DNA from: Polaribacter gangjinensis
GTDB taxonomy: Bacteria > Bacteroidota > Bacteroidia > Flavobacteriales > Flavobacteriaceae
Assembly (NCBI RefSeq): GCF_038024125.1
Contig: NZ_CP150662.1
Location: 699,501 to 763,500 of the forward strand
Direction of reading: 5' to 3'
Length of the DNA: 64,000 nucleotides
Position 1 is the stretch's first letter, and every line of letters begins with the position of its first letter. The notes beneath the pieces are model-generated. The model did no database searches. It was not told the origin of the DNA and saw only the letters and a program-made list of their open reading frames with translations. A program made the position numbers and the translations under genes. This document shows positions 8,948 to 17,400 of the stretch, in pieces.

Positions 8948-8960
8948 TTTTTTTGAAAAT

Positions 8961-8976
8961 ACCTACATATAGGTAG
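8961..8976 (+). promoter_or_regulatory. Candidate response-regulator operator, site 1
   Basis: The inverted repeat ACCTACATATAGGTAG has 5-bp arms ACCTA/TAGGT. With the preceding T it reads TACCTAC-AT-ATAGGTA, a 7-2-7 layout. Exactly 22 bases separate it from the -7-like box at 8999-9006. It lies 57 bases before the start at 9034. Confidence 0.7.
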
Positions 8977-8998
8977 CCGTCTTTGAAAAAATTTTTTT

Positions 8999-9006
8999 GA
9001 TATTTA
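8999..9006 (+). promoter_or_regulatory. -7-like element GATATTTA of the 9034 operon
   Basis: It matches TAnnTTTG at A, T, T and T (GATATTTA) and keeps the same 22-base gap from operator site 1 as the other three copies. The weak box suits a promoter that needs an activator. Confidence 0.5.
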
Positions 9007-9033
9007 CATAAACTAACTAATATCAAATAAATT

Positions 9034-9531
9034 ATGAGAGAAATTAAATTCGAAGAATTAAAAAACCATACTAGAAAACCATTTTACAAACAGAAAAAAA
9101 ATCTTGATTTAGCTGATAAAGGAAAAAAATTTAGTTATTTAAACTTAAGTAAAAAATATGTTCGATTTGAAATTTTGACTGCAAATGATAATTTTAAATT
9201 AAAAAATGTTTTTTTTACCATTCAAAATAATAAAAAATACTTTATTGTTCATATTTCAGACAATACTCCAATCTCAACAAGAAGCCTTGCTTCTAATTAT
9301 TTGATGAATATTAAAGAGCCTTTAAGTTCAATTCAAAATTGTAGTTCAAGCCCTATTTCACTTTCAGTAAATGAAGAGATAGATGTGATAGTTTTTAATG
9401 ATGAAAAACAAATATTTTGTTCAATTTTAGACGATATAATTAATTCTTATTCAAAAGAAAAAAACACTGATGAAAAAGATTTGATACAGCCTTCTGAAGC
9501 TGGAGGTGGCGTAATTGTTAAAGGGCCTTAG
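9034..9531 (+). CDS. Unknown soluble protein in front of the TPR histidine kinase
   Basis: I do not recognise this 165-residue protein. It has no signal peptide or membrane segment. The first 50 residues are Lys-rich (many KK and KxK); the middle (about 50-135) alternates short strands and looks globular. The C-terminus is an acidic stretch followed by a Gly-rich tail EAGGGVIVKGP. The stop at 9531 is one base before the kinase ATG (9533), so both are surely one transcript behind operator site 1. Its place suggests a partner or modulator of the kinase, which is only inference. The gene is as AT-rich as its surroundings. Confidence 0.75.
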   Translation: MREIKFEELKNHTRKPFYKQKKNLDLADKGKKFSYLNLSKKYVRFEILTANDNFKLKNVFFTIQNNKKYFIVHISDNTPISTRSLASNYLMNIKEPLSSIQNCSSSPISLSVNEEIDVIVFNDEKQIFCSILDDIINSYSKEKNTDEKDLIQPSEAGGGVIVKGP

Positions 9532-9532
9532 C

Positions 9533-11212
9533 ATGCCAACATTAAAAAATTTAAATTTACAAAAACTACAAATCATCATTTTTTTGATTTGTAGTTTTTC
9601 GTATGCACAAAAATCAGAGTTAGATATTGCCTATGATTATTTTCAAAAAGCAACAAAATTTGATAATGAAAATAACCACTTTAAAGCTTATGAAAACTAT
9701 ACAAAATCGTTACATCTTTATAAAAAAGTAAATGCTTTTGATAGCATTGCAAAATGTAATTTAATCTTGTTTGATATTTTGCAGTCTCAAAATGATTTGA
9801 ATTATGATGCCAAACCTTTTTTAGATGCCTATTATCAATTTGCCTTACAAAAAAATGATTCCCTTAAAATACTTACTTCTTATTTTAGGTATGCTGAATA
9901 TAATTTTGATAGAAACCCAAGATTAGCATCCAATTTTTATCATAAAGCAATTAAATATACCAAAAAATCAAGTTCAATAGCAATTGCTTATGCAAATTTA
10001 GCGCTTTTATATACCCAAACTCAACCAGATTCTGCCCGTTTTTACTTTAAGAAAAATTTAGATTTGATTGATATTACAAATAGCAATGCTTTGATTAGCT
10101 TTTATATCAACTATGCCAACTTTTTTCAAAAACAAGGAGATTATAAAGAAGCAATCATTCAATTAAAAAAAGCGGAAGAAATTGAGCCAACTGCATACAA
10201 ACTAAAATATGATAAAATTTTATATGAAAAGTTTGCAAACTGTTATAAAGGTTTAGGAGATTACAAAAACGCTTACTCCTATTACGAAAAATACAATATA
10301 GCAAACGATAGTCTCAACTTTACAGCCCAAAATATCGCCATTTCTGATTTGGATAAAAAATACCAAACTGCCGAAAAAGAAAAACGAATTTTAGAAGTAG
10401 AAGCCAAAAACAAAGAGCAAAAAAAATTGATTATTTGGACGGTTGTTTCGCTTTTTTTAATAGGAATTATCTCATTTCTTGCCTTAAAGAATAGTAACAA
10501 AAAACAAAAATTAGCCAATCAAGAGAAAGAGCTAGAAAAACAAAAAAACCTAACACTTTTAAAAGAGCAAGAATTGGTGGTAATTAATGCCATGATTGAG
10601 GGTCAAGAAAAAGAACGCAAACAAATTGCAGAAGATTTACACGACAATATTGGGAGTGTTTTAGCCACTTTAAAACTGCATTTCGAAAATCTTAAACTCA
10701 ACAGAGAAAAGAAACAATTTGATCAAGAAAAACTCTATGAAAAAACTGAAAACTTGATTGATGAAACCTATAAAAAAATTCGAGGAATTGCTCATGCAAA
10801 AAATGCAGGAGTCATTGCAAATGTTGGTTTGCTGAATGCAGTGCAAATTATGGCTCAGAAAATTTCTGAAGCTGATAAAATCCAAATTGAAGTTGTTCAT
10901 TTTGGACTCAATCAACGATTGGAAAACAGTCTAGAAATCACCATTTTTAGAATCATTCAAGAGTTGATTACCAATGTTATTAAACACGCAGAAGCCAACA
11001 ATGTGACCATCAATATTTCTTTATATGACAACATGGTTAACATTATTTTTGAAGATGATGGAAAAGGTTTTGAGAAAAATAAAGTTACCTTTTCCAATGG
11101 AATGGGATTGGATTCTATTGAAAAAAGAATCACACATTTAAACGGAAGTTTTGAAATTGATTCTACCATTGGCAAAGGAACAACGTTTGTGTTGAACATT
11201 CCAATTGAATAA
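9533..11212 (+). CDS. TPR-containing sensor histidine kinase (HisKA_3 type)
   Basis: I start it at the ATG 9533 (559 residues), one base after the upstream stop; a TTG six codons earlier lies inside the previous gene. An N-terminal signal peptide or anchor (to about SYAQ) precedes a periplasmic TPR region (about 25-290). One membrane helix (IIWTVVSLFLIGIISFLAL) and a coiled coil follow. The dimerisation/phosphoacceptor region has IAEDLHDNIGS with His370. The HATPase domain shows RIIQELITNVIKHA and GKGF/GMGL boxes. This is the NarL-partner class of kinase. It should phosphorylate the LuxR-type regulator encoded next. Confidence 0.93.
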   Translation: MPTLKNLNLQKLQIIIFLICSFSYAQKSELDIAYDYFQKATKFDNENNHFKAYENYTKSLHLYKKVNAFDSIAKCNLILFDILQSQNDLNYDAKPFLDAYYQFALQKNDSLKILTSYFRYAEYNFDRNPRLASNFYHKAIKYTKKSSSIAIAYANLALLYTQTQPDSARFYFKKNLDLIDITNSNALISFYINYANFFQKQGDYKEAIIQLKKAEEIEPTAYKLKYDKILYEKFANCYKGLGDYKNAYSYYEKYNIANDSLNFTAQNIAISDLDKKYQTAEKEKRILEVEAKNKEQKKLIIWTVVSLFLIGIISFLALKNSNKKQKLANQEKELEKQKNLTLLKEQELVVINAMIEGQEKERKQIAEDLHDNIGSVLATLKLHFENLKLNREKKQFDQEKLYEKTENLIDETYKKIRGIAHAKNAGVIANVGLLNAVQIMAQKISEADKIQIEVVHFGLNQRLENSLEITIFRIIQELITNVIKHAEANNVTINISLYDNMVNIIFEDDGKGFEKNKVTFSNGMGLDSIEKRITHLNGSFEIDSTIGKGTTFVLNIPIE

Positions 11213-11217
11213 ATAAT

Positions 11218-11233
11218 CCTTATTTGTAGGGAT
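11218..11233 (+). promoter_or_regulatory. Candidate response-regulator operator, site 2
   Basis: CCTTATTTGTAGGGAT matches the consensus ACCTAnnnnTAGGGAT with a degenerate left arm. It lies between the kinase stop (11212) and the regulator start (11277) and has the conserved 22-base gap to the box at 11256-11263. It implies autoregulation. Confidence 0.65.
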
Positions 11234-11255
11234 TTTTACGAAAACAAAAATTACT

Positions 11256-11263
11256 TATTTTTA
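11256..11263 (+). promoter_or_regulatory. -7-like element TATTTTTA of the regulator gene
   Basis: It fits TAnnTTTG except for the last base, 14 bases before the ATG at 11277. The transcript leader would be very short. Confidence 0.5.
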
Positions 11264-11276
11264 CAAAAAATAGTTT

Positions 11277-11918
11277 ATGATTACACTTATAATGGCAGAA
11301 GATCATCAAATGTTGATTGATGGAGTTACTTCTTTTTTTGAATTTGATGAAGAAATCAAAATTATTGGTAGTGTAAATAATGGTGAAGATTTGGTAAAAT
11401 TAGTCGCTTTAAAACAACCAAAAGTGGTTATTACAGATATTCGAATGCCAAAAATGGATGGCATTGAAGCCACAAAACGCATCAAAAAACAATTTCCTCA
11501 TGTTCATGTATTGACAATGACGATGTTTGATCAGCCAGAAGCCATCAAACAAATGTTACAAGCTGGCGCTATTGGTTATATTTTAAAAAATTCAGGAATT
11601 AAAATGTTGTCAAAAGCTATTTTGACAGTTTCAAAAGGAGAAAAATTTTTTGATCCAAATGTTGCTTTTAATTTTTTGAATGACTTTATAGATGATACTA
11701 TAACCATTGGAAAAAGTGAAAAAGTTGTCTTATCCAATAGAGAAAAAGAAATTTTACTGTTGATTGCTGAAGGAAAAACTTCACAAGAAATCTCAGAAAA
11801 TTTATTTTTAGCGAAATCTACCATTGATACGCATAGAAAAAACATGATTCGAAAACTAGAATTATCTTCTGGAAGTGAATTAGTGAAATATGCTATTGAT
11901 ATGAAATATCAGTTTTAA
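11277..11918 (+). CDS. LuxR/NarL-type response regulator
   Basis: The 213-residue protein has a receiver domain (1-120) with acidic pocket AEDH, phospho-acceptor Asp54 in VVITDIRMPKMDG, and the conserved Lys in YILKNSG. A LuxR-type helix-turn-helix (about 148-205: NREKEILLLIAEGKTSQEI, then AKSTIDTHRKNMIRKL) follows. It pairs with the upstream kinase. Its own promoter carries operator site 2, so it is probably autoregulated. The lipoprotein gene 13 bases downstream is likely co-transcribed. Confidence 0.95.
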   Translation: MITLIMAEDHQMLIDGVTSFFEFDEEIKIIGSVNNGEDLVKLVALKQPKVVITDIRMPKMDGIEATKRIKKQFPHVHVLTMTMFDQPEAIKQMLQAGAIGYILKNSGIKMLSKAILTVSKGEKFFDPNVAFNFLNDFIDDTITIGKSEKVVLSNREKEILLLIAEGKTSQEISENLFLAKSTIDTHRKNMIRKLELSSGSELVKYAIDMKYQF

Positions 11919-11931
11919 AAGTTTATTTATT

Positions 11932-12780
11932 ATGAAAAAAGTAGTTTTATTATTCGGTTTATTTGTTTTTATTTCATGTACAAATTCAAAATTAATCAGT
12001 TATAAAAATAACTTTAAAAAGACTAAAACTCAAGCAGAGTTTGTTTATTTAAAAATAAAAGAAGATTCTACATTAACAGACGAGAAATCAAATAATAAAG
12101 CATTTATTGAAACCCTAGTTGGAGCTGAAATTATCAATCAAATAGTGAAAATTCCAGATTATGTTGAAAAAATTATTGAGAACAACAAAGTAAAATATAC
12201 GCAAATGTATATGGCTCGGAATTCAATTGATTTTCCTTTAATTGACTCAATAAGAATTGAAAAAGGTAAAGAAAGTATATTTGTTAAAAGATTAAAGCTT
12301 GGAGAAATTGAATTAATCAGAAAAATATCAATTAATGATTCGATTTTTGATGCAATCAAACTTAATTTCACTCCTAAAAATCTTAATAATGGATTTATGC
12401 TTTTTAAATTCAATCCAGAAAACAGTAATATCAATTTCACTAAAGCAAAGACCACAAAATCATATCCATTTGTCAATTTGAGGATAGTTATCAAAGGTTT
12501 TTATATTGATAATGATGGAAATGGAATCACAGAAAATGAGGTAGTCTCTAAAGAAATGATAATCCCTTTTAAAAATGCAGCGAATTTCAAAGAATTTTTA
12601 AATGGTATTGAAATTTATAGTACACCTTTTAAAATTCAAAATTTAATGGCACTTGAAATTGAAGTTAATGAAACGAATCCTTATCATATAAAACTAGAGG
12701 AAATAGATTCAAAATTCGATGAAAACTCGAACGAATTAACAGAAATTTTAAAACGTCTTTTAAAAACTGAGGAAGAATAA
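11932..12780 (+). CDS. Predicted lipoprotein of the 9-17 kb regulon, unknown function
   Basis: A 282-residue protein with a lipoprotein signal (LLFGLFVFISC, Cys16 as lipid site). The body is rich in Lys, Ile and Asn with a mixed strand/helix pattern and no domain I can name. It contains an acidic loop (DNDGNGITENE, about 190-200) resembling a calcium-binding loop. The C-terminus is a charged helix. It starts 13 bases after the response regulator and shares its operon, which links it to the regulon. Confidence 0.8.
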   Translation: MKKVVLLFGLFVFISCTNSKLISYKNNFKKTKTQAEFVYLKIKEDSTLTDEKSNNKAFIETLVGAEIINQIVKIPDYVEKIIENNKVKYTQMYMARNSIDFPLIDSIRIEKGKESIFVKRLKLGEIELIRKISINDSIFDAIKLNFTPKNLNNGFMLFKFNPENSNINFTKAKTTKSYPFVNLRIVIKGFYIDNDGNGITENEVVSKEMIIPFKNAANFKEFLNGIEIYSTPFKIQNLMALEIEVNETNPYHIKLEEIDSKFDENSNELTEILKRLLKTEEE

Positions 12781-12814
12781 ACTCAGATATTACATTAAAA
12801 TTTACGTAAAATAT

Positions 12815-12830
12815 ACCTAATTGTAGGGAT
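12815..12830 (+). promoter_or_regulatory. Candidate response-regulator operator, site 3
   Basis: ACCTAATTGTAGGGAT, preceded by T (TACCTAA-TT-GTAGGGA). It sits 22 bases before a perfect -7 box and occupies the place of a -33 element. It heads the five-gene envelope operon at 12884-16976. Confidence 0.75.
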
Positions 12831-12852
12831 ATTTTCACCTTTAACTTCATAA

Positions 12853-12860
12853 TACATTTG
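12853..12860 (+). promoter_or_regulatory. -7 element TACATTTG of the envelope operon
   Basis: A perfect TAnnTTTG match 23 bases before the ATG at 12884. There is no TTTG at -33; operator site 3 is there instead, as expected for an activator-dependent promoter. Confidence 0.65.
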
Positions 12861-12883
12861 ATTAAACTTAAATCAATTATATT

Positions 12884-13729
12884 ATGAAAAACTTACTTTT
12901 TATTTCAATTACTTACTTTTTTGCCGGATCTATACTGCTAGCTCAAAATGCAAATCTTACCGCAATTAATCTAAAAGAGGTAAATCTTGGTAAAGAATTT
13001 ATCAACGATAATAGTTTAGAAAATTTCTCTGGAGAATTTAAAATTCTAGATGGTCAACTTGTATTTATGCCAGATGATTGTTCTATGAGAAATTCTGGAA
13101 TGCTTTTAAAAGACATAGATGGTGGTGATTTTAAGTCGAAAAAATGGATCAAACAAGTTCAAAAATCAGAAAACAAAATTGTAGATCAAGTTTTAATTGT
13201 AGGAGTAAAAGCACCTGATGCACCAGTAATTTTTGTTAAAAAGGCTACAATTCCTTTAAAATCAGCAAAAACTTGGTCAAGTGGATCTGCAAGTTTGTAT
13301 TTAACATCAGCACAAGAACTTTATCAAAACACTATTAAATTAAGAGAGGATTTTGACATTTTTAGTGTATCAATTGATGAAGTGGAAGACCCTACTTTAG
13401 GTAAAATAACAGAGTATACCCTTTTCGATTCGAAATGTAATAAATTATCACCTGATGAAATTAAAAAAATGAGCGATAAAGAGTTAGATGGCTTAAATAA
13501 TGCACTTAAAATTGGAGGTGATTTACTATTAAAACAAGCTGCTCTAACTGGTTTGGCAGCTTTAAGCACCAAAGAAATTGCTTCAGCAGGTATGTTAGAT
13601 AAAGCTTTGATGGGAAAAGATGCAATGACTGCAGGAATTTTTCAAGCTGCTATTATTGCGCAGTTGCCAAAAATTGTAAAAAACTTAGAAGAATCAAAAA
13701 AATACATTGAGCAATTAAAAGGAGAATAA
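12884..13729 (+). CDS. Secreted protein, first gene of the envelope operon, unknown function
   Basis: A 281-residue protein with a signal peptide ending near SILLAQ. No known family is recognised. The N-terminal half (25-165) looks like a beta-rich domain with two cysteines (DDCSMR and DSKCNK). The C-terminal third (about 205-281) is helical, with a small-residue-rich hydrophobic stretch (QAALTGLAALSTKEIASAG) that could associate with a membrane, then a charged tail. It leads a tightly spaced operon of five genes (gaps 18, -4, 13 and 10 bases), all exported. Confidence 0.82.
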   Translation: MKNLLFISITYFFAGSILLAQNANLTAINLKEVNLGKEFINDNSLENFSGEFKILDGQLVFMPDDCSMRNSGMLLKDIDGGDFKSKKWIKQVQKSENKIVDQVLIVGVKAPDAPVIFVKKATIPLKSAKTWSSGSASLYLTSAQELYQNTIKLREDFDIFSVSIDEVEDPTLGKITEYTLFDSKCNKLSPDEIKKMSDKELDGLNNALKIGGDLLLKQAALTGLAALSTKEIASAGMLDKALMGKDAMTAGIFQAAIIAQLPKIVKNLEESKKYIEQLKGE

Positions 13730-13747
13730 TCAAAAGAATTCGTAAAA

Positions 13748-14581
13748 ATGAAACTACAAACCAAGTACCTTTTTTTTACTTTCATGTTTATTTCTCTTTT
13801 CAAAGGCTATTCTCAAACTGAAGAAGATTATAGATTGATTGTTGGTGTTACTAAATTCACCTCATTAGATATTAGGCATGAACAATTTGCAAATATGTTA
13901 TCTGAGAGAGTCTTGGATGTTTTAAATCAACAAAATAGGTTTTTAGTTATTGATTTAGATGGAACTGCAAGAAAAGAAGTCATCAACAAAGCACAAGAAA
14001 ATTATAAATCTACAAACTGGATTGAAGCTAATAAATCAATCAATGCTGAATATACTTTAGCAGGAGTTTTAACAAGTGTAAAATTCATTAGACTCAATGC
14101 AGGCAAAGGTTATAAAGCAACAATTACTTACACAATAAAAATTATAAATACTGAATCTGGTGAAATAATTCAAAACGGAACAGCCACATTATCATCTAAT
14201 GAAAGTGAAATTAAATTAACACCAGAAACTGCTCTTGAAAGTGCAATTAAAACAACAATTCCTGAATTAAGTAATTATTTTACTTCCAGTTTTCCCATCA
14301 AATTAAACCTGGTTAGAATTGAAAAAGAAAAAAATGAAAAAGCTATTTCAGTTCTTTTAGATGGAGGTTCAAAGGTAGGAGTTCAAGAAAATTTGGTTTT
14401 TGAATGTTATTATGTTGACAACTCTCTAGGCAAACCATTGCCAAGAATTATAGGAAAAATTAAAATATCTAAAATTTTAAGTGAAGATTTTTCGGAAGCA
14501 AAAGTATCAACTGATGGTAAAGAAATTTATTCCAATTTTAAAGAAGAAAAAAAAATAATCTGTAAAAACATAGAAAAATGA
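13748..14581 (+). CDS. CsgG/LpoB-like periplasmic protein
   Basis: The 277-residue protein has a signal peptide (cut near GYSQ) and a domain of the CsgG/LpoB type: a strand YRLIVGVTKF, a helix with LSERVLDVLNQQNRFLVID, then YTLAGVLTSVKF and a strand repeat ITYTIKIINTESGEIIQNG. CsgG itself is a lipid-anchored outer-membrane pore; this one lacks a lipobox and has an extra C-terminal beta domain (about 190-277). It could be a soluble adaptor. The stop overlaps the next gene's ATG (ATGA), indicating translational coupling to the LPP20-like lipoprotein. Confidence 0.78.
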   Translation: MKLQTKYLFFTFMFISLFKGYSQTEEDYRLIVGVTKFTSLDIRHEQFANMLSERVLDVLNQQNRFLVIDLDGTARKEVINKAQENYKSTNWIEANKSINAEYTLAGVLTSVKFIRLNAGKGYKATITYTIKIINTESGEIIQNGTATLSSNESEIKLTPETALESAIKTTIPELSNYFTSSFPIKLNLVRIEKEKNEKAISVLLDGGSKVGVQENLVFECYYVDNSLGKPLPRIIGKIKISKILSEDFSEAKVSTDGKEIYSNFKEEKKIICKNIEK

Positions 14582-15093
14582 AAACAACAATAAATTACAT
14601 AATATTACTGATAAGTATATTTTTATTATCTAGCTGTGGAAGCCAAAAAGTGGCATTTTTTCCAACTTCAGAGGTAACTTATCAAAGCTATAATGGCGAT
14701 GTCTTATCACTTAGAGTTTTAGGTTATGGTGGCAATGAAAATAGTGCTATTGAAGATGCGCAAATGCGAGCAATGGAAACACTTTTCTTTAGAGGAATAC
14801 CAAATTCAAGTTTATCTAATCCATTAATCGGATTCAATGAAAACGAATTAAAAAGAAGTCATAATAATTATTTTAAAGATTTTTTTGGATACAAAAGATT
14901 TTTAACATTTATCTCTGAAACAACTTTTATTGGAGGTCAAAAACAAAAAGTAATTGCTACAAAAATTGACAAAAAATCTGCAAAACAAGACATGGTTGAT
15001 GCTTTAGTTGTAGCAGTTGATGTTTTTGTTAATGTAAAAACTCTTAGAAAAGATCTTGAAGATCAAAATGTTATCAGAAAATTCGGATTTTAA
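14578..15093 (+). CDS. LPP20-like lipoprotein
   Basis: A 171-residue lipoprotein with lipobox LLSSC (Cys20). The body reads like the LPP20 fold: a strand (DVLSLRVLGYGG), a helix beginning at AIEDAQMRAMETLFFRG, and a final strand/helix pair (ALVVAVDVFVNVKTLRKDL). It overlaps the CsgG-like gene by four bases, and such pairs probably act in one envelope complex (inference). Family membership is by pattern only. Confidence 0.72.
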   Translation: MKTTINYIILLISIFLLSSCGSQKVAFFPTSEVTYQSYNGDVLSLRVLGYGGNENSAIEDAQMRAMETLFFRGIPNSSLSNPLIGFNENELKRSHNNYFKDFFGYKRFLTFISETTFIGGQKQKVIATKIDKKSAKQDMVDALVVAVDVFVNVKTLRKDLEDQNVIRKFGF

Positions 15094-15106
15094 AATTTAA
15101 TAACTC

Positions 15107-16018
15107 ATGAAAATACACAAATTAATATTCGTCCTTTTTGTTGTCATAAACACTAGTGTTTTTGCACAACAAGTAGAACAAGTTCAGCCAACAATTATGG
15201 TTATGCCTTTTACAAAATCAGGTGAAAATGCTCTAGAATTATTTGAAAATGATTTTAAATGGCAATCAATAATTGCAAGAGTAAATAATGCTTTTCAAGA
15301 ACGAGGTTTTAGACCTAAAGATCTGCAAGAAACAATCAATCAGGTAAAAAAATCAAAAGCAATAAGCACTTTAAAAAATGCCACATTCAATGTAGAAGAA
15401 GCAATTTATATGGAGGCAAGAACTGATATAATTGTCAAAGCATTTATCAATATTCATTCAGAGGATAATAATGTAACTAACAGCGTTCAAGTTTCATTAA
15501 AAGCAATTGAAGCTTCTTCAAGAATGGCTTTATATGATTTGCCTACCTCTAGTTCTCCCCCATTTAAAACTACAGATTATGGTTATTTAGTGGATAGAGT
15601 TTTGACTGAAGAAAATAGAATTGAGAAATTTATCAATGGAATCAATGATGCTTTTACACAAATTATTACGCTTGGAAAAGCAATTACAGTAGAAATAATT
15701 GTAACAGAAGAAAGTGTTTTTAAACTTGATGATGAGAGAAGTGAAAGTAAATTTATTTCAGAATTAATAACAGAATGGGTACAAAGTAATTCTTACAAAA
15801 ATCAATTTAGAATAAAACAAGATTCTGAAAATATATTGAGTTTTGATGAAGTTCGAATACCATTAAAAACAGAAACTGGAGCCAATTACTCAGTCAATGA
15901 TTTTGCAAGAATTTTATCTGTTGCTGTTGTAAATATTTGCGGAACTAAAGATGGTGTAAAAGCAAAAAGAACAAGACCATCTGTTTCTGAAGGAACAATC
16001 AGAATTATTTTACCTTAA
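15107..16018 (+). CDS. DUF6175-like secreted protein
   Basis: The 303-residue protein has a signal peptide (cut near SVFAQ). The mature start (QPTIMVMPFTKSGENAL) and the helix with FQERGFRPKDLQETI are typical of DUF6175, a Bacteroidota family of unknown function often found with CsgG-like proteins. The second half (about 190-303) repeats a strand-helix-strand unit (VEIIVTEESVF, then FARILSVAVVNICGT), suggesting a duplicated CsgG-like fold. It is the fourth gene of the operon. Molecular function is unknown. Confidence 0.75.
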   Translation: MKIHKLIFVLFVVINTSVFAQQVEQVQPTIMVMPFTKSGENALELFENDFKWQSIIARVNNAFQERGFRPKDLQETINQVKKSKAISTLKNATFNVEEAIYMEARTDIIVKAFINIHSEDNNVTNSVQVSLKAIEASSRMALYDLPTSSSPPFKTTDYGYLVDRVLTEENRIEKFINGINDAFTQIITLGKAITVEIIVTEESVFKLDDERSESKFISELITEWVQSNSYKNQFRIKQDSENILSFDEVRIPLKTETGANYSVNDFARILSVAVVNICGTKDGVKAKRTRPSVSEGTIRIILP

Positions 16019-16028
16019 AAATCAAATT

Positions 16029-16976
16029 ATGAAAACAAATTTCTTATTCTCAATAATGTGTTTTTTATCAATATTTAACATAAAATCACAAGAAACGAAT
16101 TCACTCTTAAATTCAAGAATTATAATTTCTGTTGTCATGCCAGAAAATGAAGAAAAAATTTCAAACGCAAATTTTGCAAAGATAAAATCAAAAATTAAAC
16201 AGATTATCTCAAAAAATGATGTTGCTGCAACTGATTATTATGCAGATTTTTTAGTATATCCATCAATTGAAATTTATGATGAAGAAAATTTAGATGCTGG
16301 TTTACAACCAATTTCAATAATCAGTGGAGAATTTACATTGTTTGTAAAACAATTTTCAACAAACAATCAATTTGGAAGTATAACTGTAAAATTCAAAGGT
16401 TCTGGGAAAGATAAATCAGAAGCAATTAAAAATGGCATTTTAAAAATAAATTCAAACAACAAAGATTTTCAAATATTTTTAAACTCTGTAAAATCAAAAA
16501 TTATAAATTATTATCAAAATAATTGCTCATTAATAATTGCGGAAGCTGATAAATTAAATGCAAGTAATTTATACGAAAAAGCAATCATCCAATTAATTTC
16601 AATTCCCTCTGGAATATCAAAATGCGATCTAGAAATTAATAGAAAAATCGTTCAATACTATAAAAATTACTCCAATGCTGTTTGTGAAAAAAATATGATG
16701 ATTGCCAATGGCTATTTTAGTGAACAAAATTTTTCTAAAACATTAGAAGTCCTAAGAACCATCAATCCTGAATCAAAATGCAAGAATAATGCACTAAGTT
16801 TAATGAAAAAAATTGAATCAAAAATTGATGCAAAAGAAAAAGAAATTTTTGATTTGATGATGAAAGTGTATAATGATCAGGTTGCCTTAGAAAAAATGAA
16901 AATTAATAGTATCAAAGAGATTGCAATGGCTTATTATCAAAACCAACCTGAAACAAAAATCAATATCATAAAGTGA
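16029..16976 (+). CDS. Secreted protein with CsgG-like N-terminus and helical-repeat C-terminus
   Basis: A 315-residue protein, signal peptide cut near NIKSQ. Residues 28-160 show a strand/helix order like the upstream CsgG/DUF6175 proteins (RIIISVVMP, then ADFLVYPSIEIYD, ISGEFTLFVKQF). Residues about 170-280 are TPR-like helical pairs (ASNLYEKAIIQLISIPSG, ANGYFSEQNFSKTLEVLRT). The tail is a charged helix. It ends the envelope operon; helical repeats suggest protein-protein contacts in a periplasmic assembly. No named family is recognised. Confidence 0.75.
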   Translation: MKTNFLFSIMCFLSIFNIKSQETNSLLNSRIIISVVMPENEEKISNANFAKIKSKIKQIISKNDVAATDYYADFLVYPSIEIYDEENLDAGLQPISIISGEFTLFVKQFSTNNQFGSITVKFKGSGKDKSEAIKNGILKINSNNKDFQIFLNSVKSKIINYYQNNCSLIIAEADKLNASNLYEKAIIQLISIPSGISKCDLEINRKIVQYYKNYSNAVCEKNMMIANGYFSEQNFSKTLEVLRTINPESKCKNNALSLMKKIESKIDAKEKEIFDLMMKVYNDQVALEKMKINSIKEIAMAYYQNQPETKINIIK

Positions 16977-16982
16977 TAAATT

Positions 16983-16998
16983 ACCTATTTATAGGGAT
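16983..16998 (+). promoter_or_regulatory. Candidate response-regulator operator, site 4
   Basis: ACCTATTTATAGGGAT, preceded by T. TACCTAT matches the NarL heptamer TACYYMT exactly. The gap to the -7-like box at 17021 is again 22 bases. Confidence 0.75.
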
Positions 16999-17020
16999 AA
17001 AACGACTCTTCGATTTACAA

Positions 17021-17028
17021 TAAATTTA
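17021..17028 (+). promoter_or_regulatory. -7-like element TAAATTTA of the small lipoprotein gene
   Basis: It matches TAnnTTTG except the last base and lies 26 bases before the ATG at 17055, at the fixed distance from operator site 4. Confidence 0.55.
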
Positions 17029-17054: not shown

Positions 17055-17348
17055 ATGAAAAAAATTAAAACTTTATTTTTTGTAGCTATTACAGCCATTG
17101 CATTTTCATTTACAGGTTGTGAAGTTTTTGAAGAAGAAACTACAGATGCAGTTTGCAATATTGATTCTGAGTATAATAGCTATTTAAATGCAGTTACTGC
17201 ATTTAGCAACAATCCAACAAGAACAAATTGTAACAACATGAAAACAAGAGCAAATGCATTTATTTCTGCAGCATCAAGATGTTCAGGTGGAGTTGATGTT
17301 AGCTCTGCTAGAGATATGATAAATTCAATAGATTGTTCAGATTTTTAA
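17055..17348 (+). CDS. Small Cys-containing lipoprotein, probable end product of the regulon
   Basis: A 97-residue lipoprotein; the lipobox is FSFTGC (Cys22). The mature 76 residues hold four further cysteines (VCNI, TNCNN, RCSG, DCSD), which would allow two disulfides around a small helical domain rich in Asn, Ala and Ser. It has its own promoter with operator site 4 and a strong terminator right after, so it is a single short transcript, as often seen for an abundant structural or effector product. Family unknown. Confidence 0.8.
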   Translation: MKKIKTLFFVAITAIAFSFTGCEVFEEETTDAVCNIDSEYNSYLNAVTAFSNNPTRTNCNNMKTRANAFISAASRCSGGVDVSSARDMINSIDCSDF

Positions 17349-17354
17349 CTGTAT

Positions 17355-17400
17355 TAATTCATAAAAAAAAGTGGCTTGCGCCACATTTTTTTATGAATTA
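17355..17400. terminator. Bidirectional terminator between the small lipoprotein gene and recQ
   Basis: A 21-bp stem (one mismatch) closed by GTGGC/GCCAC with loop TTGC and flanked by an A-run and a T-run works in both directions. Its right end includes the recQ stop codon. Confidence 0.85.

Follow-up and report, generated by a model that had tools for sequence, protein, structure and literature searches.

A dyad-plus-spacing operator-promoter code predicted for a LuxR-type two-component regulon of Polaribacter gangjinensis and its relatives

The operators of NarL and NarP of Escherichia coli are built from heptamers in a 7-2-7 arrangement, and LuxR-type regulators that activate in the class-II manner use a site centred near -42. 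In Porphyromonas gingivalis, the FimS-FimR pair joins a kinase to a LuxR-type regulator. The NarL heptamer is given as TACYYMT in one report (PMC4886647). We analyzed a 64,000-nucleotide stretch of the Polaribacter gangjinensis genome (NZ_CP150662.1, positions 699,501 to 763,500; hereafter the window, in which the coordinates below are counted). Four sites clustered within one of its loci, all on the + strand, share a 16-bp inverted repeat, or dyad, at a fixed distance from a -7-like promoter box, and a LuxR-type response regulator encoded at 11277 in the same locus is the proposed reader of the dyad. The mechanism proposed is of a known kind; the regulon and its operator, like the kinase locus, are without description among the matches listed in a literature search of titles and abstract openings.

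The four 16-mers were found where the preliminary description had put them, at 8961, 11218, 12815 and 16983, and the gap to the box was exactly 22 bases in all four cases, as it had reported. The boxes are, in order, GATATTTA, TATTTTTA, TACATTTG and TAAATTTA. Its consensus, ACCTANNNNTAGGGAT, held exactly for sites 3 and 4, with two mismatches each at sites 1 and 2; similarly, a TAnnTTTG-like box follows every site, but exact TAnnTTTG was seen only at site 3. With the frame shifted one base to the left, the sites become the 16-bp dyads TACCTACATATAGGTA, TCCTTATTTGTAGGGA, TACCTAATTGTAGGGA and TACCTATTTATAGGGA. The ideal dyad derived from relatives is TACCTA-N4-TAGGTA, of the 7-2-7 type, and only site 1 of the four matches it exactly. 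The sites and the two-component genes are as follows.

8960..8975, + strand: dyad 1, TACCTACATATAGGTA; a dyad also stands ahead of the kinase unit in genus loci
8999..9006, + strand: -7-like box of promoter 1, GATATTTA
9533..11212, + strand: TPR sensor histidine kinase (HisKA_3 and HATPase_c, Pfam)
11217..11232, + strand: dyad 2 (imperfect), TCCTTATTTGTAGGGA; regulator genes of relatives are also preceded by dyads, many imperfect
11256..11263, + strand: -7-like box of promoter 2, TATTTTTA
11277..11918, + strand: LuxR/NarL-type response regulator (Response_reg and GerE, Pfam), proposed dyad reader
12814..12829, + strand: dyad 3, TACCTAATTGTAGGGA
12853..12860, + strand: -7 box of promoter 3, TACATTTG, exact TAnnTTTG
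16982..16997, + strand: dyad 4, TACCTATTTATAGGGA
17021..17028, + strand: -7-like box of promoter 4, TAAATTTA

The locus resembles the NarL/NarP systems in its inverted heptamers, in a response regulator with a GerE domain, and in a core, TACCTA, that overlaps the NarL heptamer. The dyad type was recognized correctly in the preliminary description, and the two half-sites it had named (site 1 right, site 4 left) do fit TACYYMT, but they are the only two of the eight half-sites in the window that do. The locus also differs from NarL/NarP in its ideal dyad of TACCTA-N4-TAGGTA with an A-tract upstream, in a predicted position near -43 at a Bacteroidota-type promoter, and in that no nitrate genes were seen in the unit in the window. 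Regulator 11277 scored below the NCBIfam cut-offs for NarL (107.7 vs 250 bits) and NarP (83.4 vs 343 bits). The closest solved structures by sequence were VraR (1e-37), DesR (5e-27), NarL (2e-22) and DevR (2e-21), proteins of other phyla with other targets that are likened to 11277 by protein sequence alone. FimS-FimR likewise belongs to the Bacteroidota, and the window kinase matched the FimS model weakly (E 1.8e-8), with 33.1 bits against an NCBIfam cut-off of 600; a single literature search for a FimR site listed no papers.

The [TG]A..TTT[AG] box occurs at 0.36% of window positions and at 1.05% of those in seven spacers, among them the four spacers of the sites themselves. If any of 60 offsets is permitted, four boxes coincide at a single one with a probability of about 1e-8 to 7e-7, and the identical spacing is beyond coincidence, as had been argued. 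The bare 17-mer with up to two mismatches showed no enrichment in the genome (41 matches vs 84 for the reversed control) and lay at or below background, and bare-motif counting was discarded as evidence. A composite of the relaxed dyad, 22-24 bases and ANNTTTR yielded five matches in the 2.94-Mb genome, the four window sites and one extra (G000:C1:517756, G000 being the window genome), with none for the reversed control. This composite was drawn so as to take in four of its own matches; the strong test is in other genomes. Three one-mismatch 17-mer matches (G000:C1:179367, 403173 and 1600642) were dismissed as sites, having no box at the right place, and the one at 403173 also lies inside a coding frame. 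An extra dyad at 517197, with its box about one base nearer, precedes a protein of 143 amino acids (aa) with a signal-like start. A sigma-70 promoter scan gave 64 matches vs 52 +/- 9.8 in shuffles and is uninformative for this phylum.

We compared 97 genomes of the same genus and 299 of the family. The exact dyad occurred 202 times in the genus genomes vs 27 for the reversed control. Together with the box at the window spacing, it gave 155 matches in 53 of the 97 genomes (reversed control, 1), which fell to 2 matches in 2 genomes when the box was displaced by 5 bp (reversed control, 0). The family pattern, TACCYA-N4-TRGGTA followed at the same spacing by ANNTTTG, was found 63 times in 43 of the 299 genomes and never in the reversed control; with the box displaced by 5 bp there were 2 matches in 2 genomes (reversed control, 6), so chance yields a handful at most. 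A further set was not selected for spacing and comprised dyads with at most one mismatch at regulator loci, with ANNTTTG sought within 70 bases. Here 26 of the 40 ANNTTTG occurrences at 15 genus loci, and 30 of the 39 at 27 family loci, fell on offset 23 or 24. Relatives use two spacings one base apart, 23 or 24 bases from the end of the dyad to ANNTTTG, and all four window sites have the longer one. As judged by comparison of genomes, the dyad with its spacing is a real and conserved operator-promoter code for a predicted LuxR-type two-component regulon. The preliminary description is upheld in its central claim and amended on consensus, position and exclusivity.

The 15 genus loci comprise the window and loci from 14 of 35 further genus genomes holding the orthologue of regulator 11277. 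The orthologues in these 14 genomes are 76-94% identical to it, and other matches listed reach at most 42%. A dyad with at most two mismatches to the 17-mer lay ahead of the kinase unit at 15/15 genus loci, window included, accompanied by a box, by eye, in 14 of them (L072 was without). All 15 also carried a dyad, many of them imperfect, ahead of the regulator gene (L063 from a separate listing), with another gene intervening at L075. Among the 27 family loci inspected by eye, 18 had a dyad ahead of the kinase unit and 15 had one in the roughly 100 bases that follow the regulator gene; neither position was occupied at L117, L186, L194 and L200 (the L186 contig begins within the kinase). Conservation upstream of orthologues, whose absence the preliminary description had named as refuting, was found for the dyad ahead of the kinase unit at 15/15 genus and 18/27 family loci. 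Five of the 15 genus loci (L065, L066, L069, L070 and L075) have a second, weaker dyad with at most two mismatches exactly 24 bp upstream of the dyad of the first promoter. Second kinase copies occur at L065 and L069, where every copy has a dyad in front and the copies seem to feed a single regulator gene. In most genus loci, dyad and regulator ATG are close to 60 bp apart, and at promoter 2 of the window (11217-11277) the predicted leader to the regulator ATG is only about 9 nucleotides.

Regulator 11277 has the domains of the NarL/FixJ (LuxR-type) class, a receiver (Response_reg, 87.6 bits) and a C-terminal GerE helix-turn-helix (65.5 bits), both above the Pfam cut-off, and it adjoins a kinase with HisKA_3 and HATPase_c, again both above cut-off. 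Its helix-turn-helix is near-constant over the 14 species aligned. Orthologues, called at E <= 1e-80 within the genus and E <= 1e-60 within the family, were present in 34 of the 97 genus genomes. At least one exact dyad occurred in 34/34 genomes with the orthologue (mean 4.4) vs 26/63 without (mean 0.83; Fisher p = 4e-10), and the composite in 23/48 family genomes with the orthologue vs 20/251 without (p = 3e-10). The genome of P. gangjinensis has five GerE matches, and the four besides 11277 are 37-53% identical, which makes 11277 the best candidate reader. The composite pairing, recurring across the family mostly together with the regulator, probably marks genes under the control of regulator 11277.

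Counted upstream from the G of TTTG, the dyad centre is at 37.5 or 38.5 bp. In Flavobacterium psychrophilum, the sigma-A box TAnnTTTG is placed at -12 to -5 of mapped starts in PMC9723704. On that footing, the dyad is predicted to span about -51 to -36, with its centre at -42.5 or -43.5, against the -33 region, which is weakly conserved beside the dyad in 74 sites selected for dyad plus box. The preliminary description had placed the regulator one to two turns upstream of the polymerase; the dyad is instead predicted to abut the -33 region, in a class-II-like position. A class-II activator site is expected to have its centre near -41.5 and to overlap or abut -35/-33. The likeness to LuxR-type class-II activation would lie in a dyad flush with the -33/-35 region, and the differences in a Bacteroidota promoter with TAnnTTTG and in a position that is here predicted. 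Class-II activation is favoured because the dyad is flush with a weak -33 and because the second dyad stands exactly 24 bp upstream in 5/15 loci.

We consider it likely that a single autoregulated two-component regulon, class-II activated by 11277, has its operators at the four sites. This reading draws on the presence, spacing and conservation of the sites and on their association with the regulator gene, and from these we infer binding, phosphorylation, activation, transcription starts and operon limits. The TPR sensor kinase (9533-11212) would phosphorylate the response regulator (11277-11918), a dimer of which would occupy the 16-bp dyad, some 43 bp before each start and directly against the -33 region. 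The bound regulator would then recruit the housekeeping sigma factor, in the class-II manner, to promoters whose -33 is weak and whose -7 box is of the TAnnTTTG type. Transcripts from promoters 1 and 2 would encode the system's own signalling proteins (autoregulation), the former the kinase together with a 165-aa protein and the latter the regulator itself with a lipoprotein; promoter 3 would serve a five-gene envelope operon, and promoter 4 a small lipoprotein.

Several results weigh against this reading. Site 1 aside, the window sites deviate from the ideal dyad, site 2 the furthest, and the stricter family pattern matched the window genome only at the small-RNA site described below. The exact composite is missing from 25 of the 48 family genomes having the orthologue, and dyads remain in 26 of the 63 genus genomes without it at the E-value used, one of the 63 (G399) holding a regulator fragment. 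The association and spacing statistics ignore shared ancestry. The position of the dyad also fits repression: a regulator seated against the -33 region would block the polymerase and give negative autoregulation. Autoregulators often repress, and the dyad does abut the promoter; however, the weak -33 element in the logo is as at activator-dependent promoters, the spacing is constrained to 1 bp, which repression would not need, and the second dyad exactly 24 bp upstream (5/15 genus loci) suits recruitment better. We regard a repressor operator as very unlikely. Chance similarity, or a sigma-factor recognition element that includes the dyad in place of a regulator site, is hardly credible. In favour of this view, counts of the bare 17-mer with two mismatches do not exceed background, but the spacing controls already contradict it (155 vs 2 matches in the genus and 63 vs 2 in the family for the composite and the displaced box), as do the two-fold symmetry, the tandem copies and the co-occurrence with a LuxR-type gene.

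The dyads in 26/63 genus genomes without an 11277 orthologue also bear on who reads the site: the dyad could be generic to several LuxR-type regulators, with another protein as its main reader here, either a solo LuxR or one that belongs to a second group of response regulators. Such a group was found in the orthologue-less genomes with a 64-aa GerE query and is a candidate reader, not proof of one. In a hand-picked sample of 14 of the 26 dyad-bearing and 9 of the 37 dyad-free orthologue-less genomes, with membership decided by each genome's best matches only, the second group was the best GerE match in 10/14 vs 1/9 (p = 0.007); for 4 of the 23 (L291, L292, L293 and L299), the helices were unread by position and the genomes were scored outside the group from identities. 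In G399, one of the 14, the regulator fragment ranked first and the second group next. Three of the 40 dyad loci examined had a solo LuxR-type gene or remnant immediately upstream, and two of the search queries were derived from those loci. Against another main reader in P. gangjinensis, none of its five GerE matches belongs to the second group by identity to the query, just one composite site lies away from the 11277 locus in its genome, and second-group genes showed no relaxed dyad with an accompanying box in the 1.5 kb around them. We judge another main reader here unlikely. Given dyads in orthologue-less genomes together with other LuxR-type proteins, a shared LuxR-type code is likely; the dyad probably belongs to such a code and is, elsewhere, probably read by other LuxR-type proteins. 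The site alone is thus no proof of regulator 11277. As for the earlier assignment of all four sites to 11277, autoregulation stands as the best reading because orthologous loci retain the composite and its presence tracks that of the regulator gene, whereas exclusivity is not supported. Of 20 dyad-promoter loci from genomes counted as orthologue-less, four lead into the candidate small RNA described below, and at the other 16 the gene that follows encodes a protein whose start is signal-like by eye.

The remaining features of the unit are listed here; operon limits follow from spacing, and export signals were judged by eye.

9034..9531, + strand: 165-aa protein, encoded first in the unit and matching neither Pfam nor NCBIfam
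11932..12780, + strand: 282-aa predicted lipoprotein (signal by eye), probably read with the regulator
12884..16976, + strand: five genes, probably one operon, for predicted envelope proteins (signals by eye): a 281-aa protein, a FlgO-like protein, a 171-aa lipoprotein, a DUF6175 protein and a 315-aa protein
17055..17348, + strand: 97-aa predicted small lipoprotein (signal by eye)
17371..17384, no strand: bidirectional terminator-like hairpin closing the unit

The FlgO-like match scored 22.3 bits, just under the cut-off of 22.6, and the five-gene envelope set recurs at 3 of the 14 loci of genus relatives (L063, L065 and L070). Terminator-like sites numbered 4 vs 2.1 +/- 1.5 in shuffles. Median identity between species is 85% for the regulator, 73% for the kinase half and 32% for the sensor half (14 species, excluding L072, where the kinase N-terminus was not called). 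The 165-aa protein had only three relatives besides itself in a large protein search; its C-terminal GGGxIVxGP is invariant in the five sequences aligned, and gene content at its position differs among species. A protease-like protein, without an obvious export signal, is among these front genes, between the first dyad and the kinase, in 5/15 genus loci. The matches are S8 (subtilisin) at L070, papain-like C70 at L069 and a Mycoplasma-peptidase-like one at L072, all above the Pfam cut-off, and papain-like at L065 and trypsin-like at L076 below it. By eye, proteins of the papain, trypsin or subtilisin class also occupy the front position at L113 and L192. A membrane-like protein of about 110 aa recurs there as well (L076:15567-15899; also L190, L204, L205, L115 and L197), and for the L076 copy no Pfam match above cut-off was obtained. 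Mutations in colour mutants of Tenacibaculum discolor affect, according to PMC12521978, a regulator gene annotated uvrY_2 and a kinase gene annotated nreB_2, possibly but not necessarily the present pair.

At the fifth composite site (G000:C1:517756; L031:7757-7940), no clear gene was seen downstream. The predicted transcript of about 125 nucleotides ends in a GGCTCGC...GCGAGCC hairpin and a T run. Of the 13 loci looked at, 11 can be aligned over the dyad and box, a stretch inside the transcript that resembles GCTATGAAAAG, and the terminator, 7 of them in genomes with the regulator orthologue and 4 in genomes counted without (one holding a fragment). The fold z-score is -3.8, due largely to the terminator hairpin, and Rfam gave no match in the seven loci searched. 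We regard the locus as a candidate dyad-controlled small RNA.

Regulator binding sites are, to our knowledge, rarely known in marine Flavobacteriaceae, an impression formed without an exhaustive search. The dyad-plus-spacing code can be searched genome-wide at very little background, giving a predicted regulon for each species, and it connects a sensor kinase locus, itself uncharacterised, with envelope proteins and with a candidate small RNA. We tentatively suggest, as a possibility somewhat short of even, that the operator marks a sensing module found throughout the Flavobacteriaceae, in which a conserved regulator and kinase core is combined with a species-variable sensor half and front genes that sense or process a protein or peptide signal, one DNA code reaching envelope proteins and a conserved small RNA. 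That the signal is a protein or peptide is a guess. Peptide quorum sensing was weighed as a role for the variable front genes, and nothing was seen that speaks for or against it. Outside the genus, the regulator orthologue is closest in genome G281, which has 11 composite sites, four of them within 1 kb (contig C46:14990-15963), and these clustered sites possibly represent a gene family under dyad control.

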